From Pontiellaceae bacterium B12219 (GTDB taxonomy: Bacteria; Verrucomicrobiota; Kiritimatiellia; Kiritimatiellales; Pontiellaceae), in assembly GCA_029432795.1 (NCBI GenBank), contig JARNMJ010000016.1, positions 1 through 64,000 on the forward strand: a stretch of DNA of 64,000 nt, given 5' to 3'. The position numbers and the translations under genes are program-made. Under the pieces are notes generated by a model. That model worked only from the letters and a program-made list of their open reading frames with translations, searched no databases and was not told the DNA's origin. This document shows, in pieces, positions 57,670-64,000 of the stretch. Numbering within the stretch: position 1 is the first letter of the stretch; each line of letters starts with the position of its first letter.

Positions 57670-59874
57670 ATGAACTATTACGCACATAGTAATACCGAGG
57701 ATCCTTCCCGTTGGCAACCGCTCGAAGACCATTTAGAGCAAGTCGCCGAACTCGCAGCACAATTTGCCCGCCCCTTCGGCGGCGAGGAATGGGCGCGGCT
57801 CGCCGGACTCTGGCATGATTTAGGCAAATATCATCCGGACTTCCAGCGTAAGCTGAAAGGGGAAAGTATTCGCGTTGTCCATTCCGAGGCGGGTGGGCAT
57901 TTGGTTTCACTTAAAGAATGGCGTGGGATGGATGTAATTTTTTCGTGGCTGATTATGGGGCACCACGCCGGGTTGGCTGATTACGGCGCCGGGGATGCCG
58001 GAGGAAAGGCGCTGGAACCGAAGATGCGCCATCCTGAAAAATCCAATGACGTGTTGTCGAATGTTCCTGCGATAATTTTGGACCAAATACCGCCCGTAAA
58101 GCCGCCAATGTTTGCGAATGCAGATCGGTATCCGGATCAGGCGTTTTTTGTCCGCATGTTGTACTCTTGTTTGGTGGATGCCGATTTTCTCGATACGGAA
58201 GCGTTCATGGATGCATCGCGTAAGGCCGCACGTCCAAACAATCCCGCGAGCATGGAAGAGCTGTTATCTTGTTTCGATGCGCATATGGCACGATTCGATG
58301 GAGCGGAAGGTACGGTGAATCAATGCCGGGCGCAGGTGTTGGCACAGTGCCGCGCCGCTGCTGAGCAAGCGGGCGCATTTTCACTGACGGTTCCGACGGG
58401 CGGCGGAAAGACGCTGGCGTCGCTGGCATTTGCGCTGCGGCACGCAGTGAAGCACCAAAAGCGCCGCATCATTTATGTGATTCCCTACACGAGCATCATT
58501 GAGCAAACCGCTGAAGTGTTTCGTTCAATTCCTGGTTTCGAGGATGCCGTACTGGAACATCATTCGAATCTGGTTTTTGACGACGATCAGGAAATCGCGG
58601 AAAAACGCGCACGACTCGCGATGGAAAACTGGGATGCGCCCATTGTGGTGACGACGAACGTCCAGTTTTTCGAGTCGTTGTATGCGAACCGGAGCAGCCG
58701 GTGCCGCAAGTTGCATAATATTGCGAACAGCGTGGTGATTTTTGATGAAGCGCAATGTTTGCCGCCCGCATTTCTGCGGCCCTGTGTGTTCGCGATTCGA
58801 GAATTGGCTCGGCACTACGGTGTCACGCCTGTGCTTTGCACCGCTACGCAGCCCGTGCTCACGGAAACTAAGTCGTTTGATTTTGAATTCACCGAAGGTT
58901 TTAAGCAGGTCACTGAAATTATCGACAAACCGAATGCATTGAGTCAGCAACTTGCGCGCGTTCAGGTGGAAGTGCTCAATGAATTGAACCCGGTTGATCT
59001 CGCTGTGTTGGCCGATCAGTTAAAAGCGGAATGCAGTTCGTTACTCTGCATTGTAAACCGCAAGGCGGATGCGCGGGCACTTGCCGAGCGGCTTCCTGGG
59101 GAAAATACCATTCATCTTTCGACCAACCTTTGCGCGGCGCACCGGTTCGAGGTGCTCTCGGAGATTCGCCAACGGTTGAAGTGCGGTGAGCACCTGTTGG
59201 TGATCAGCACGTCATTGGTCGAAGCGGGGGTTGATCTCGATTTTCCGGTGGTCTACCGCGCATTGGCCGGACTCGACTCCATTGCTCAAGCCGCCGGACG
59301 ATGCAATCGCGAAGGAAAACTGAAAATGGGCCGCACGGTCGTTTTTATGCCGGGAAAACAGCCCGACTACGTAAAGCCCGCCGCATCGCTCGCGCTGAAC
59401 TATTTGAAACCCGACCGTTTGAACCGCATCTTTTTGCCGGAAACATTCCGCGCCTATTTCAAGCAATACTTTTTTATGAAAGGGACGCAGGCGCTCGATC
59501 AAAAAGGCATCCGTGAGCTCTTGCCGAATGAGACAGCCGCGATCCGCTTCCAAACCGCCGCAGAACGTTTCCGTCTCATTGATTCCGATTGGCAGCTTCC
59601 CGTCATTATGCCTTTCCGCGAAGCGTCGGAGCTGGTCGATCAGCTATTGACGCGCAAATGGGAAGCCAAAGCCATCTGCCGGAAACTGCAGCGCTATACC
59701 GTCAATATTTCCAAGCGCGTGGTGGATCAATTGGTGGATCAGGATTACGCGCGGCCCGTGGAAGGATTCGAAGGAATGGTTTTTCTGCATACCAGGCAAC
59801 TCTACGACGAACGTTTCGGATTCATTCCGCCCGACTCGATTGAAAGCTTTAATTCGGAGGAATTAGTCATATGA
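57670..59874 (+). CDS. cas3: Type I-C CRISPR-associated helicase/nuclease Cas3
   Basis: 734 residues. N-terminal HD nuclease (about 1-210) with WHDLGKYHPDFQ, SEAGGHL and MGHHAGLADY. The SF2 helicase follows: Walker A TGGGKTLASLAFALRH, TSIIEQTAEVF, the DEAQ box in VIFDEAQCLPP, CTATQPVL (motif III), and motif VI QAAGRCNREG. It unwinds and degrades DNA after Cascade binds a target. Its stop overlaps an ATG (ATGA) preceded by GGAGG, which looks like the ancestral start site for the next cas gene, now separated from it by an insertion. Confidence 0.95.
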   Translation: MNYYAHSNTEDPSRWQPLEDHLEQVAELAAQFARPFGGEEWARLAGLWHDLGKYHPDFQRKLKGESIRVVHSEAGGHLVSLKEWRGMDVIFSWLIMGHHAGLADYGAGDAGGKALEPKMRHPEKSNDVLSNVPAIILDQIPPVKPPMFANADRYPDQAFFVRMLYSCLVDADFLDTEAFMDASRKAARPNNPASMEELLSCFDAHMARFDGAEGTVNQCRAQVLAQCRAAAEQAGAFSLTVPTGGGKTLASLAFALRHAVKHQKRRIIYVIPYTSIIEQTAEVFRSIPGFEDAVLEHHSNLVFDDDQEIAEKRARLAMENWDAPIVVTTNVQFFESLYANRSSRCRKLHNIANSVVIFDEAQCLPPAFLRPCVFAIRELARHYGVTPVLCTATQPVLTETKSFDFEFTEGFKQVTEIIDKPNALSQQLARVQVEVLNELNPVDLAVLADQLKAECSSLLCIVNRKADARALAERLPGENTIHLSTNLCAAHRFEVLSEIRQRLKCGEHLLVISTSLVEAGVDLDFPVVYRALAGLDSIAQAAGRCNREGKLKMGRTVVFMPGKQPDYVKPAASLALNYLKPDRLNRIFLPETFRAYFKQYFFMKGTQALDQKGIRELLPNETAAIRFQTAAERFRLIDSDWQLPVIMPFREASELVDQLLTRKWEAKAICRKLQRYTVNISKRVVDQLVDQDYARPVEGFEGMVFLHTRQLYDERFGFIPPDSIESFNSEELVI

Positions 59875-59896
59875 AAAAGGCGGCCCGAAGGCCGCC
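59874..59896 (-). terminator. UUCG-capped intrinsic terminator of the crRNA-like RNA
   Basis: Minus strand: GGCGGCC, loop TTCG, GGCCGCC, then TTTTT. On the plus strand the same hairpin has no T-run, so it should terminate only minus-strand transcription. Confidence 0.75.
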
Positions 59897-59902
59897 CGAA
59901 TT

Positions 59903-59918
59903 ACTGAATATATTCAGT
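59903..59918. promoter_or_regulatory. Perfect 16-bp palindrome inside the spacer-like segment
   Basis: ACTGAATATATTCAGT is fully self-complementary. It could be an operator for a dimeric regulator, or a hairpin-forming part of the small RNA. Confidence 0.45.
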
Positions 59919-59923
59919 TTATG

Positions 59924-59955
59924 GTTTCAATCCACGTTCAATAAGAACGGCAATG
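59924..59955 (-). CRISPR. Solitary type I-C-like CRISPR repeat
   Basis: Minus strand: CATTGC, stem CGTTC, loop TTATT, stem GAACG, then TGGATTGAAAC. The last 11 nt equal the common type I-C handle, and the last 13 nt (CGTGGATTGAAAC) match common I-C repeats. Stem and handle keep the register in which Cas5 cuts (just 3' of the stem), while the stem bases differ from usual GC-rich repeats but still pair. No second full copy is found in the window. Confidence 0.75.
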
Positions 59956-59960
59956 TGGAG

Positions 59961-59990
59961 GTTGCACGGGACGTTAGAGCTGTGCAAGGA
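59961..59990. other. Second hairpin with repeat-like features
   Basis: TTGCACGG (59962-59969) pairs with CTGTGCAA (59980-59987; one wobble) around a 10-nt loop, followed by ATTGAAAT at 59993-60000, close to the ATTGAAAC handle. It may be a diverged, oppositely oriented repeat, but the match is weak. Confidence 0.35.
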
Positions 59991-60100
59991 AAATTGAAAT
60001 TGTCATATACTAATATAAAAGGTTATGGAAAAAAGTTTTTGACGCGGGGTGCCGAAGGGGCTATTTGTTTTTTAACAACGAGCCGATAGGAGGTGTTGAT

Positions 60101-60766
60101 ATGAATGAGATTCCGAGAATTAGTGCAAATAAACTTGGCGAGTACATGAATGCAACAGTTAGCCGGAGACGTCAGATCATTAAGGATCAGAAAAGTCCAA
60201 AGAAGTTTAAGGCTGCTTACTATCGGCCTGCTCAAAATGCTCTGAGTAAGTATATTTCCGGTGAATGGGCGTTACCTCAGCTTTTCGATAAATTAGCGGT
60301 TTTGCATGATGGCTCTGATGGCAGGGAATATCAGAACCGCGTCAAGGGATGTTCGGCAGGTGCAATAGAAGCATTCTTGGCTAATTACGAAGATTTTAGT
60401 TTTCCGGGGAGAGTCAACAGTGTGAGTTCCTTTTCCAGTATGGCCATGGATTTAAATGGAGTGATGATTTCAGTACGACCAGATCTTTTGCTTGAGAATG
60501 CCGATGACTCCGAGGTTGTCGGGGCTGTGAAATTTCATTTTTCGAAGTCTGTTCCTCTAGGAGATGTTGGGAGTGATTATGTGGCACTGATTTTACGGCT
60601 TTATTTGGAGGAAGAAATTGGGGTGAAAAATGTCGATCCCAAGAAATGTATTGTTTTAGATATTCACGATGGAAATTTACGATTTGCTCCAAAATCCTTC
60701 GTAAAACGGAAACGCGATATTCAGGCTGCTTGTGATGAAATTCGCTCTGGTTGGGAAACAATTTGA
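60101..60766 (+). CDS. Hypothetical protein inserted in the cas operon, possible PD-(D/E)XK-like fold
   Basis: 221 residues from ATG 60101, AGGAGG 7 nt upstream. Residues 1-50 are helical and basic (ISANKLGEYMNATVSRRRQIIKDQK). Residues 125-160 read VRPDLLLENADDSEVVGAVKFHFSKS; Asp of RPD and Lys of VKF sit where the PD-(D/E)XK fold has Asp and Lys, although the second acidic residue is not seen. It has no Cys cluster, so is not Cas4. Codon use is more A/T-rich than cas3 or cas8c, consistent with separate origin. I recall similar small proteins of unknown function but cannot name a family. Confidence 0.75.
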   Translation: MNEIPRISANKLGEYMNATVSRRRQIIKDQKSPKKFKAAYYRPAQNALSKYISGEWALPQLFDKLAVLHDGSDGREYQNRVKGCSAGAIEAFLANYEDFSFPGRVNSVSSFSSMAMDLNGVMISVRPDLLLENADDSEVVGAVKFHFSKSVPLGDVGSDYVALILRLYLEEEIGVKNVDPKKCIVLDIHDGNLRFAPKSFVKRKRDIQAACDEIRSGWETI

Positions 60767-60780
60767 TTGGAGAAATGATG

Positions 60781-61443
60781 ATGAAAAAAAGTAAACCCTT
60801 CCGGTTGCGAGTGAGCGGCGAAAACGCCTGCTTCACCCGTCCGGAAATGAAAGTGGAGCGCGTGTCGTATGATGTGATTACGCCATCGGCGGCGCGCGGT
60901 ATCTTCGAAGCGATTCTGTGGAAACCCGCGATCCAGTGGAATATTCGGCAGATCGATGTACTTAAACCGGTAAAGTGGGAATCCGTGCGGCGCAATGAAG
61001 TGGGCAAAAAGATGGGTAAGCCCTCAGCGGGTCATATGGCGGGCGGACGGCATAAGCCGTTGGAACTCTTTGTTGAAAAGGAGCGCCAACAACGTGCGGG
61101 CCTTTTTCTGAAGCATGTCGAATATGTGCTTCATGCTGACTTTGAAATGACAGCAAAGGCAGGCGCTGACGATACGGTGACTAAATTCGAGCAGATGTTT
61201 TTGCGGCGGGCGTCGCAGGGCCAATGTTTTCAGCAACCTTATTTCGGCTGCCGCGAATTCCCCGTCGACTTTGAATTGATTGGGTTGAAGGATGAGCTGC
61301 CTGAGCCAATTCAGGAAACACGCGATTTGGGGTGGATGCTCTACGATTTGGATTATCGCGGAAAGGAGCCGATGCCTCAGTTTTTTCATGCGCAACTCGT
61401 GAACGGATCATTGGACTTGAGGGACGTGGAGGTGCGGTCATGA
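60781..61443 (+). CDS. cas5c: Cas5c (Cas5d) pre-crRNA endonuclease of type I-C
   Basis: 220 residues from ATG 60781; GGAG 8 nt upstream (ATG 60778 also possible). SGENACFTRPEMKVERVSYDVITPSAARGIFEAILWKPAI in parts is the family N-terminus. In type I-C, Cas5 replaces Cas6 and cuts the repeat 3' of its stem; Tyr, Lys and His residues act there, and LKHVEYVLHADFEM supplies His and Tyr candidates. Stop overlaps the cas8c start by 4 nt. Confidence 0.95.
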   Translation: MKKSKPFRLRVSGENACFTRPEMKVERVSYDVITPSAARGIFEAILWKPAIQWNIRQIDVLKPVKWESVRRNEVGKKMGKPSAGHMAGGRHKPLELFVEKERQQRAGLFLKHVEYVLHADFEMTAKAGADDTVTKFEQMFLRRASQGQCFQQPYFGCREFPVDFELIGLKDELPEPIQETRDLGWMLYDLDYRGKEPMPQFFHAQLVNGSLDLRDVEVRS

Positions 61444-63242
61444 TTCTGCAGGCATTAGCTCAATATTACGATCGGTTACTGCATGATCCGAAGATCAATA
61501 TTGCGCCTTTGGGGTTTGAGCAGAAGAAGATCGATTTTTTAATTCTGCTTACAGAACAAGGTACCTTCAGTGCACTTTGGGATTTGCGGGAAGGAACTGG
61601 AAAAAAGAAGCAGGGCCGAATGACGCGTGTTCCAAAGGGCGTCAAGCGGACTGTCGGAGTCGCGGCGAATCTATTGTGGGACACCGCACCCTACGCGCTG
61701 GGCCATTTATTGCGCTCCGATAAGAAAGCGAAGTTGGCCTATCGTGGAAAGGGCGCAGCGAAGCGGCTCGACCTCTCCAAATCCAAAAAAGAGTTGGCGA
61801 AGATGAAGGCACGCTTGCCCAAACAGTACGCGGCTTTTATTGAGGAAATTGAAAAGACCTTTGAAGGCTGTGATGACGCTGGCATTCGGGCGGTATTGGC
61901 TTTTTTGCGAACTGCTGAATTTGATGTGTTGTTCGCGCATCCGCTGTGGCAAGAGGTGGAAGCGAGCGGGGGAAATCTGACCTTCGCGCTTGAAGATGGT
62001 GAGATGATTTGTCAACGCCCGGCAGTGGTTCGGGCGATTGTTGAGCAGGCGAAACCATCTACAGGCGGACAGGTGTGTGCGGTGCGGGGCGAACCCGATG
62101 AACTGGCGGAGCTGCATACGGCCATCAAAGGGGTGTGGGGAGCACAATCATCCGGAGCCAATATCGTCTCGTTCAATTTGGATGCCGTGAGTTCATTCGG
62201 GAAGAAGCAGGGGCATAATGCACCCATTGGAAAGCAGGCGGAGTTCGCCTACACGACTGCGCTGAATTATCTGTTGGCGAGCGATCGGCAGCGGATGCAG
62301 GTGGGCGACGCGAGCACGGTCTTCTGGGCAAGAGATCCCTCAGATTTCGAACAGACCTTTATTTCCTGCTTTGAACAGCCCCAAAAAGGCGAAGAGGCAG
62401 TGAAGTACGATAAAATCCGTTCCCTGCTTCGTTCAGTCAAAAGCGGTGTTCCGGCGGAGGACGAGATGCGCCCCTTTTATGTATTGGGTCTCGCTCCCAA
62501 TGCCGCACGTATTTCGATTCGGTTTTGGTATGAAGGTAATTTGAAGCAGATCAAAGAGCGTATGGCTCGTTTCTTCGAAGAAATTGAAATGGTTCGGTCA
62601 AAACGGGATCCCGAGTTCCTTTCGCTCTTACAACTGCTCAGCTCCACCGCTACGGAAGGGAAGATCGATAATCTGCCGCCGAATATTGCGGGTGATTTTG
62701 CGCGTGCAGTTTTCATGGGTGGAAATTATCCGCGTACGCTGCTTTCGAACGCGGTTCGGCGCTGCAAGGCGGAGCAGCGCGTTACATACGCACGGGTTTC
62801 AATCATTAAGGCGTGTTTAGTGCGAAACGCGCAGTTTCCAAATTTAACTAACCAGGAGGTCTCAGTGGCATTGGATAAAACATATGACGACATGGGCTAT
62901 GTGTTGGGGCGCTTATTCGCTGTGCTCGAACGTATTCAGGAGAAAGCGCAGCCGGGAATTAATAAAACGATTCGCGATACCTATTTCGGCGCCGCGACCA
63001 GTTCTCCGCAGATCACGTTTAAGCGATTGGATGAACTTTCGATTCATCATCTCGCGAAGATCCGAAATGGCGGTCAATCCATCGTGTGGTACGAGCGTTT
63101 GAAGCAGGAAGTTTACGACCTGATTCCCGCATCAGGAATTCGCAACCAGTTGACCTTGGAAGAGCAGGCGCGTTTCGCCGTCGGCTACTATCATCAGCGT
63201 CAGGATTTTTTCACCAAAAAAGAAATTGAAGGAGAAGTGTAA
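61440..63242 (+). CDS. cas8c: Cas8c (Csd1) large subunit of type I-C Cascade
   Basis: 600 residues from ATG 61440, GGAGG 7 nt upstream; the frame is open upstream through cas5c but the start is fixed by the overlap. [35 protein letters not shown] in parts, then [41 protein letters not shown] in parts and [14 protein letters not shown] are typical Csd1 blocks. It recognises the PAM and recruits Cas3. A Cas11-like internal product from its C-terminal part is known in I-C systems; a likely internal start lies at 62863-62865 (GTG) after an AGGAGG-like site (62853-62858). Confidence 0.94.
62863..63242 (+). CDS. Candidate internal translation of cas8c (Cas11c-like small subunit)
   Basis: In frame within cas8c, GTG 62863 follows CAGGAGGTCTCA, a strong ribosome site about 5-6 nt away that serves no other gene. 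It would yield about 126 residues beginning (V/M)[26 protein letters not shown], here in parts, an all-helical segment. Type I-C Cascade is known to contain a small subunit made by internal initiation in cas8c. Placement and length match that precedent, so this is well supported by inference. Confidence 0.7.
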
Positions 63243-64000
63243 TGAGTAATCCCATTAATAATCGATATGAATTCGTACTGCTGTTCGACGTAAAGGACGG
63301 AAACCCTAATGGCGATCCGGACGCGGGCAATCTGCCGCGCGTCGATCCGGAAACAGGCAATGGTCTCGTCACGGATGTTTGCCTGAAACGTAAGGTGCGC
63401 AACTATATTCAGCTGACGCAGGGCGATAAGCCGGAGATGAAAATTTTCATTAAGGAAAAGGGCATCCTCAATACGATGATTGATGCTGCGCATGAAGATG
63501 ATTTCGTGGCAAATAAGGAAAAACCGGGCGATAAAACCGAGGCGGCCCGTCAGTTCATGTGCAGAAATTATTTTGATATCCGTACCTTTGGCGCGGTCAT
63601 GAGCACCGGGAAAAATGCCGGCCAGGTGCGCGGCCCGGTTCAACTGGGATTTGCCCGCAGTAAGGACCGCATTTTTACCGGAGAGCACACCATCACGCGC
63701 ATGGCGGTTGCGACGGAAGCTGAGGCCGAAAAGCAGAAGGGCGACAACCGAACCATGGGGCGCAAGTTCACTATCCCCTACGGTCTCTACGAAGTGCATG
63801 GCTTTATCTCTGCGCCGTTGGCGAAGCAGACGGGGTTCTCCGAGGAGGACCTTGAACTGTTCTGGAATGCGCTGATTAATATGTTCGATCACGACCGCTC
63901 CGCCGCGCGTGGTGAAATGGCTCCGCAGAAACTGATCGTTTTCAAGCACGCTTCCGAACTCGGAAATGCCCCGGCGCAGAAGCTGTTTAATCTGGTGACG
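63242..64000 (+). CDS. cas7c: Cas7c (Csd2) backbone subunit, C-terminus beyond window
   Basis: 253 codons visible; the frame continues past 64000. ATG shares one base with the cas8c stop (TAATG), AGGAGA upstream. [20 protein letters not shown] begins the protein and [20 protein letters not shown] follows, the hallmark of Csd2. Several copies coat the crRNA spacer. In canonical operons cas4, cas1, cas2 and the array follow, outside the window. Confidence 0.95.

Follow-up and report, generated by a model that had tools for sequence, protein, structure and literature searches.

A candidate Cascade-repressed CreTA/CrePA-like cassette between cas3 and cas5 of a type I-C CRISPR operon in a Pontiellaceae bacterium

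We analysed a stretch of 64,000 nucleotides (nt) from Pontiellaceae bacterium B12219 (contig JARNMJ010000016.1, positions 1 to 64,000; hereafter the window), and within it an open reading frame (ORF) encoding 221 amino acids (aa) that sits in a type I-C CRISPR-Cas operon with the order cas3-ORF-cas5-cas8c-cas7, as assigned with Pfam. We consider it probable that this ORF and a solitary CRISPR repeat beside it make up a CreTA/CrePA-like module that was inserted between cas3 and cas5 and is repressed by Cascade, and by analogy the cargo protein is probably a toxin or an abortive-defence effector released when Cascade fails. A first-pass annotation had raised the possibility of an addiction or defence module guarded by Cascade by means of a CRISPR RNA (crRNA)-like unit, and this is supported by the unity of the cassette, by a unique seed match beside a TTC motif, and by nine other operons wired in the same way, three of them with PIN cargo. 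The same annotation described a well-formed gene with a strong ribosome site inside the interference operon, with which the coordinates, the Shine-Dalgarno sequence AGGAGGTG, the Pfam neighbours and the chance of 221 open codons at the base composition of the ORF (2e-7) all agree.

The solitary repeat is degenerate and lies on the minus strand at 59890-59949, between the cas3 stop and the ORF, from which it is divergent, with a terminator following it. On its own strand the unit reads CGTTC-TTATT-GAACG, TGGATTGAAAC, CATAAACTGAATATATTCAGTAATTCG and onward, and then a GC-rich hairpin with a T-run. Reverse-complemented, the 13 nt GTTTCAATCCACG at 59924-59936 match the 3' end of the array repeat exactly; in minus-strand reading they are CGTGGATTGAAAC, the sole copy outside the array in the 4.75 Mb searched, and the reversed pattern, used as a control, had no match in the same 4.75 Mb. 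The crRNA-like unit that had been noticed directly upstream of the ORF is confirmed by this exact match. Over its length the degenerate repeat (psi-repeat) is identical to the array repeat at 18 of 33 positions, with the hairpin at the base of the handle retained. The fold of 59865-59960 has a z-score of -3.5 and beats all 200 shuffles, and an Rfam search returned no match for the unit. The region yielded a single terminator, that of the unit, where about one would be expected by chance; its placement at the end of the unit therefore counts for more than its presence. The spacer-like segment (psi-spacer) holds a perfect 16-bp palindrome, ACTGAATATATTCAGT, at 59903-59918 (spacer positions 6-21), which is unique in the window and could fold into a hairpin that confines pairing to the initial bases, or serve as a protein-binding site. 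A LexA-like reading of this palindrome was dropped, the spacing of its half-sites being 8, as against 10 for LexA.

A predicted target for a guide of this kind lies immediately upstream of the ORF. We scanned 72.5 kb of the contig for a TTC protospacer-adjacent motif (PAM) next to bases matching positions 1-5 and 7-8 of the spacer, position 6 being flipped out in Cascade, as is established (PMC8501985), and a single site carried TTC with all seven seed positions matched. It overlies an AT-rich stretch 71-107 bp before the start of the ORF, upstream of both the ORF and cas5-8-7 and in the same orientation as the latter. The fraction of shuffles reaching this match was 0.00065 for the 164-bp region upstream of the ORF and 0.0045 for the whole slot between cas3 and cas5, and the longest run that any of the 48 array spacers made in the target region was 4.

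The unit and the ORF appear to have travelled as one piece. In G024, a sister genome of the same genus whose cas5 and cas3 proteins are 98% and 88% identical to those of the window, about 14 nt separate the cas3 stop from the cas5 start, and neither a solitary repeat nor the ORF is present; the empty site is found in other relatives also. Because both are missing from the G024 site, unit and ORF were gained (or lost) together; acquisition is indicated by composition, since the cassette (GC 42%) has a GC content at third codon positions (GC3) of 37%, against 56-60% in the adjoining cas genes. No direct repeat was seen by eye at the insertion edges.

The arrangement is not confined to the window. 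In two surveys, which took one genome per species and included many draft assemblies, we looked at the gap between cas3 and cas5 in other I-C operons. The first resolved 67 loci of the same phylum, nearly all with gaps below 60 bp; eight exceeded 200 bp, of which seven were real expansions, the apparent expansion at L045 being a cas3 frameshift. In all seven (L020, which is the window, L038, L043, L047, L049, L074 and L075) a minus-strand psi-repeat stands next to the cas3 stop, and every psi-spacer is matched by a PAM-adjacent target within the cassette it belongs to (TTC in six, GTC in one) with PAM-proximal runs of 7, 8, 12, 15, 7, 11 and 8, respectively; across 42 non-cognate pairings of psi-spacer and cassette the run never exceeded 5. 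The second survey added L140, of the same class, and L118 and L127, from a different phylum, that of an Acidovorax genome in which a relative of the window protein occurs (below), bringing the other operons to nine; their TTC targets match at 14 (L140), 15 (L118) and 13 (L127) of 15 positions, and in L118 and L127 the repeat follows the cargo and is read on the plus strand. When eight targets were pooled, positions 1-5, 7 and 8 matched in 8/8 each, position 6 in 2/8, position 12 in 1/8 and position 18 in 0/8, and this six-base rhythm of mismatches is what would be expected of sequences under selection through Cascade.

Both unit and cargo are absent from the majority of the phylum's I-C operons. 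Gaps of 109-206 bp (L103, L162, L158 and L161) and of 241 bp (L166) were found without a repeat, L120 has an ORF in the slot (GIY-YIG-like by eye) without a repeat, and L139 has a repeat-like match whose motif was not resolved. At L165 (G847), a gap of 174 bp holds a solitary repeat and a terminator but hardly any cargo, and the slot showed no target; this is possibly a CreR-type autoregulator, or a cassette whose cargo was lost.

The cargos of the nine other cassettes comprise three PIN proteins, four small hydrophobic ORFs, one RNA resembling transfer-messenger RNA (tmRNA) and one unassigned (L075); calls given here as made by eye rest on inspection, not on profile searches. At L043 (G187, gap 923 bp) Pfam identifies a PIN-domain protein (PF01850, E 9e-4, slightly below the curated cut-off; the sequence searched has one glycine more than the translated 134-aa ORF, and the family call should hold) paired with a gene for a FitA-like ribbon-helix-helix protein (PF22513), and by eye the pair of PIN and ribbon-helix-helix genes at L047 (G316, gap 969 bp) resembles it. 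In both, the creA-like unit stands behind the toxin gene and the target lies over the start of the PIN gene, with 12 and 15 consecutive scored positions, respectively; from their sequences these are apparently classical toxin-antitoxin pairs under Cascade control. L140 (G959, gap 925 bp) has, by eye and in this order, a Phd-like antitoxin gene, a minus-strand creA-like unit and a plus-strand PIN gene with the TTC target in its upstream region. The hydrophobic ORFs (L038, L049, L118 in G618 and L127 in G684) encode 46-63 aa. In the PIN and small-hydrophobic cassettes the target lies at the cargo's own start, including where the cargo is transcribed away from cas5. The cargo of L074 (G353, gap 246 bp) is not a protein; it is an RNA with an 18-bp stem around an element like the T-arm of a tRNA, and its match to tmRNA is weak and sub-threshold, so that it is possibly a tmRNA- or tRNA-mimic toxin silenced by Cascade. 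By analogy, the PIN toxins of the slot are the best indirect evidence that the window ORF may encode a toxin or abortive effector. These cargos also lead us to lean, somewhat, towards a broader proposal: that the cas3-cas5 junction of I-C operons is a docking slot for interchangeable, unrelated toxins (RNases of the PIN type, small membrane peptides, an RNA like tmRNA and, in the window, a new family of Cas4/RecB-fold pseudo-nucleases), each acquired together with its own solitary-repeat antitoxin and each silenced by Cascade.

What the window protein itself does is less readily read from its sequence. Searches with Pfam, NCBIfam, PHROGs and PADLOC profiles, and of PDB sequences, gave no match. 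An AlphaFold2 model built from eight sequences (predicted local distance difference test score 87, predicted template-modelling score 0.85) has an alpha-beta-beta-beta-alpha-beta core, and its best structural matches are AdnA, ACE1, Dna2 and type I-C Cas4 (Z 9.5-10.8 in the VIA-align list, absence from which does not rule a family out; best Foldseek E 1.5e-4), covering nearly the whole chain at about 10% identity. The fold search called for by the first-pass annotation thus returned a confident PD-(D/E)XK fold of the Cas4/RecB type, a type belonging to nucleic-acid enzymes. The PD-(D/E)XK-like segment proposed there holds good as to fold, and the segment RPD...VKF is present (R126 P127 D128 ... 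V143 K144 F145); as a catalytic site it does not stand, for the acid of the (D/E)XK motif, at position 142, is never D or E in the ten aligned members of the family (10/10), and D128 and K144 vary. Because the catalytic motif is degenerate, the term nuclease is not supported, and with only three cysteines (C84, C183 and C211) a four-cysteine iron-sulphur site of the Cas4 type is excluded. The residues invariant in the family are P5, S8, L12, R23, F92, D187 and W218. From the model, we read the protein as a nucleic-acid-enzyme fold that appears to have lost canonical catalysis.

Relatives at 23-40% identity occur in Verrucomicrobiota, Acidovorax, a gemmatimonad, a planctomycete plasmid and viral contigs, and further ones in the phylum of Acidovorax, where two genomes have an intact gene and a third has the gene split by a transposase ORF (L065 in G504; the transposase is IS30-like by eye, with the halves of the gene on either side). 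Their neighbours include an EcoAI-type HsdR, a DrmD-like SNF2 helicase and a BPTD_3080-type restriction gene (the last two below curated cut-offs), an AAA ATPase, a phage integrase-like gene (by eye) and a prophage context. One relative (28%; L014:5983-7218) is followed directly by a truncated cas1 whose subtype is uncertain, and the minus strand of the relative carries a hairpin and a terminator; the contig ends in cas1, and the putative repeat had no match in a viral scan. Two other candidates for a crRNA-like unit upstream of relatives were rejected. The putative handle of the two-hairpin arrangement at L016 occurs exactly once in its genome, which therefore has no array carrying it, and the genome of L017, which has a similar two-hairpin arrangement, shows no Cas1, nor does that of L015.

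Several of our results weigh against a Cascade-repressed toxin module in the window. The complementarity here is the shortest of the set, with seven seed bases and little pairing beyond them, and in H. hubeiense 10 seed bases are needed (PMC8501985); so short a match is, taken alone, suggestive only. No sigma-70-like promoter passed the scan threshold upstream of the ORF, and the position of the promoter is accordingly inferred. As the catalytic residues are not conserved, biochemical activity is not fixed by the sequence. Finally, no I-C cas genes stand beside the relatives in the loci tested, and no CRISPR wiring could be demonstrated for relatives outside cas operons, so the protein need not be a toxin. 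The association with I-C operons that had been looked for elsewhere is of two kinds: the slot and its wiring recur, in nine other operons, and the protein family is found in an I-C operon only at the window.

Other explanations must be weighed against these same data. It is possible, if doubtful, that the ORF is an antiviral effector, not toxic to its own cell, that serves as a backup defence switched on when an anti-CRISPR disables Cascade. The restriction, SNF2 and prophage-integrase genes beside its relatives would suit such a role, whereas the other cargos of the slot are recognisable PIN toxins or toxin-like hydrophobic peptides, and an effector without cost would not need to be silenced. 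Alternatively, the unit might serve autoregulation in the manner of CreR, allowing Cascade to repress an internal promoter of cas5-8-7, with the ORF a passenger or accessory and not a toxin. CreR units are common in type I systems (PMC12737573), binding at a target placed upstream of cas5-8-7 and oriented with them would affect those genes too, and the psi-repeat of L165 has little cargo beside it and showed no target in the slot. Against this, the unit comes with cargo in the window genome and in nine others, the PIN and small-hydrophobic cassettes have their target at the start of the cargo even when the cargo points away from cas5, and most I-C operons of the phylum do without both unit and cargo; we therefore regard autoregulation as unlikely to be the explanation.

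Two further readings we find hard to credit. The solitary repeat might be an RNA-based anti-CRISPR (Racr), a selfish mimic sequestering Cas proteins, with the ORF an accessory of a mobile element; phage-borne solitary repeats are known as Racrs (PMC10651486), the cassette looks horizontally acquired, and relatives of the protein occur in prophages. This is nonetheless very improbable, since a Racr does not need a match to its spacer, and the site with seed and PAM, together with sister targets that follow the periodicity of Cascade, indicates a guide function. Slighter still is the prospect that a decayed array fragment lies by chance beside an unrelated inserted gene. The degenerate repeat and the short seed match would be in keeping with decay; the handle, hairpin, terminator, PAM and seed are all retained, however, the unit and the ORF are both missing from the empty site, and the arrangement recurs in nine other operons.

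We thus return to a module repressed by Cascade and suggest how it might work (features in Table 1). The minus-strand RNA would be transcribed as far as the terminator and cut by Cas5c at the base of the hairpin, yielding a CreA-like guide with an authentic 11-nt handle, which would start UGGAUUGAAAC-CAUAAACUG (UGGAUUGAAAC-CAUAA). Cascade loaded with this guide would bind 59994-60030 through the TTC PAM and the short seed; the match itself is observed, and would be too short for destruction of the DNA, yet would presumably keep the ORF, and perhaps cas5-8-7 behind it, from being transcribed, cas5c being possibly co-transcribed with the ORF. If Cascade were lost or mutated, or an anti-CRISPR inhibited it, the ORF would be made from its strong ribosome-binding site. 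The protein might then arrest growth or abort infection, and would probably do so by engaging with nucleic acid, or with the enzymes that act on it, and not by canonical PD-(D/E)XK cleavage; this is the least certain step. More speculatively, derepression could also restore Cascade by raising transcription of cas5-8-7.

Table 1. Positions in the window of the candidate cassette, its parts and the adjoining cas genes
Feature	Position	Strand	Remarks
Inserted cassette (terminator, crRNA-like unit, promoter region, ORF)	59850..60760	.	edges approximate; missing in G024; AT-rich, low GC3
Intrinsic terminator GGGCGGCC-TTCG-GGCCGCC + T-run	59878..59897	-	ends the crRNA-like RNA
psi-spacer CATAAACTGAATATATTCAGTAATTCGGGCGGCC	59890..59923	-	from sequence
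11-nt crRNA 5' handle TGGATTGAAAC	59924..59934	-	identical to cognate array repeat
psi-repeat hairpin CGTTC-TTATT-GAACG	59935..59949	-	sequence diverged, stem kept
Putative CreA/Cascade target	PAM TTC 60030-60028, protospacer 60027-59994	-	matched at positions 1-5 and 7-8 of the spacer, not at 6
Shine-Dalgarno AGGAGGTG of the ORF	60088..60095	+	from sequence; strong ribosome-binding site, five bases 5' of ATG
Cargo ORF, 221 aa	60101..60766	+	ATG at 60101, stop 60764-60766; putative Cascade-repressed toxin/effector
cas3, type I-C helicase/nuclease	57670..59874	+	upstream edge of slot; Pfam DEAD, Cas3-like_C_2, HD
cas5c (Cas5d)	60781..61443	+	downstream edge of slot; Pfam Cas_Cas5d
cas8c	61440..63242	+	Pfam Cas_Csd1
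cas7c	63242..64000	+	extends beyond window end; Pfam Cas_Cas7

Beyond the end of the window, 3' of cas7 on the same contig, lie the adaptation genes (by eye) and the array, the latter at about 67250-70500, with 49 exact repeats of GTCGCGCCCCGCCCGGGGCGCGTGGATTGAAAC and spacers of 32-35 nt.

What is known of CreTA-type guards comes for the most part from type I-B archaea and a handful of bacteria, and a 2025 review raises the question of whether comparable modules occur in other types and act on other targets in the cell (PMC12737573). The ten type I-C cassettes, with their sequence-encoded targets and no fewer than four unrelated classes of cargo, would provide a direct and testable answer to that question. 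They also supply a simple rule for finding more, namely a solitary repeat in the cas3-cas5 gap together with a TTC-flanked match whose mismatches recur with a period of six bases. Should the cargo be toxic, the slot offers both new toxins and natural anti-CRISPR sensors, and if the docking-slot proposal is true, the window protein would be the first case of an effector with this fold being controlled in this way.

We found no description of a type I-C CreTA in the open-access literature, subscription papers lying outside the search. Three of the five features that define CreTA are seen here: a repeat with its processing determinants, a PAM-flanked partial match near the cargo's putative promoter, and linkage to a cas locus; the other two, repression that depends on Cascade and its guide and toxicity of the derepressed cargo, are predicted here. 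A homing crRNA of a CRISPR-associated transposon (CAST) would be an atypical crRNA beside Tn7-like transposition genes, at which no search was aimed; CAST systems are not known to have cas3 and the full I-C gene set, both of which the window operon carries. The closest parallel in position is the type I-E CreTA of Citrobacter rodentium, which lies between cas3 and casA, the first Cascade gene, with an antisense creA (PMC12055562); there too the creA-like unit is upstream of the toxin on the opposite strand, and a partial spacer match stands beside the cognate PAM near the toxin promoter, which in the window is a putative one. The two are also alike in that the toxin, a putative one in the window, has to be translated (PMC12055562). 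The C. rodentium system differs in its type and in its 96-bp ORF, as compared to the I-C operon and the 221-aa folded protein of the window, for which a toxin role is putative. The type I-B CreTAs of Haloarcula hispanica and H. hubeiense (PMC8501985, PMC9458426) share with the window a degenerate repeat, a TTC PAM, a disregard of position 6 and the form of a single repeat with a terminator; the H. hispanica CreA has one repeat, ends in a terminator and uses a seed of positions 1-5 and 7-11 with a TTC PAM (PMC8501985), in contrast to positions 1-5 and 7-8 here. In overall fold the window protein resembles Cas4, ACE1, Dna2 and AdnA, and differs from them in missing the (D/E)XK acid and the four-cysteine site. 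In CrePA, according to the summary of Shu et al. 2024 given in PMC12737573, the toxin CreP is a protein with a KilA-N domain, and the system is proposed to answer anti-CRISPRs; the window protein gave no profile match to KilA-N and has instead a Cas4/RecB-type fold, and what the two would have in common is a protein cargo held in repression by crRNA-guided Cascade, as we propose here.
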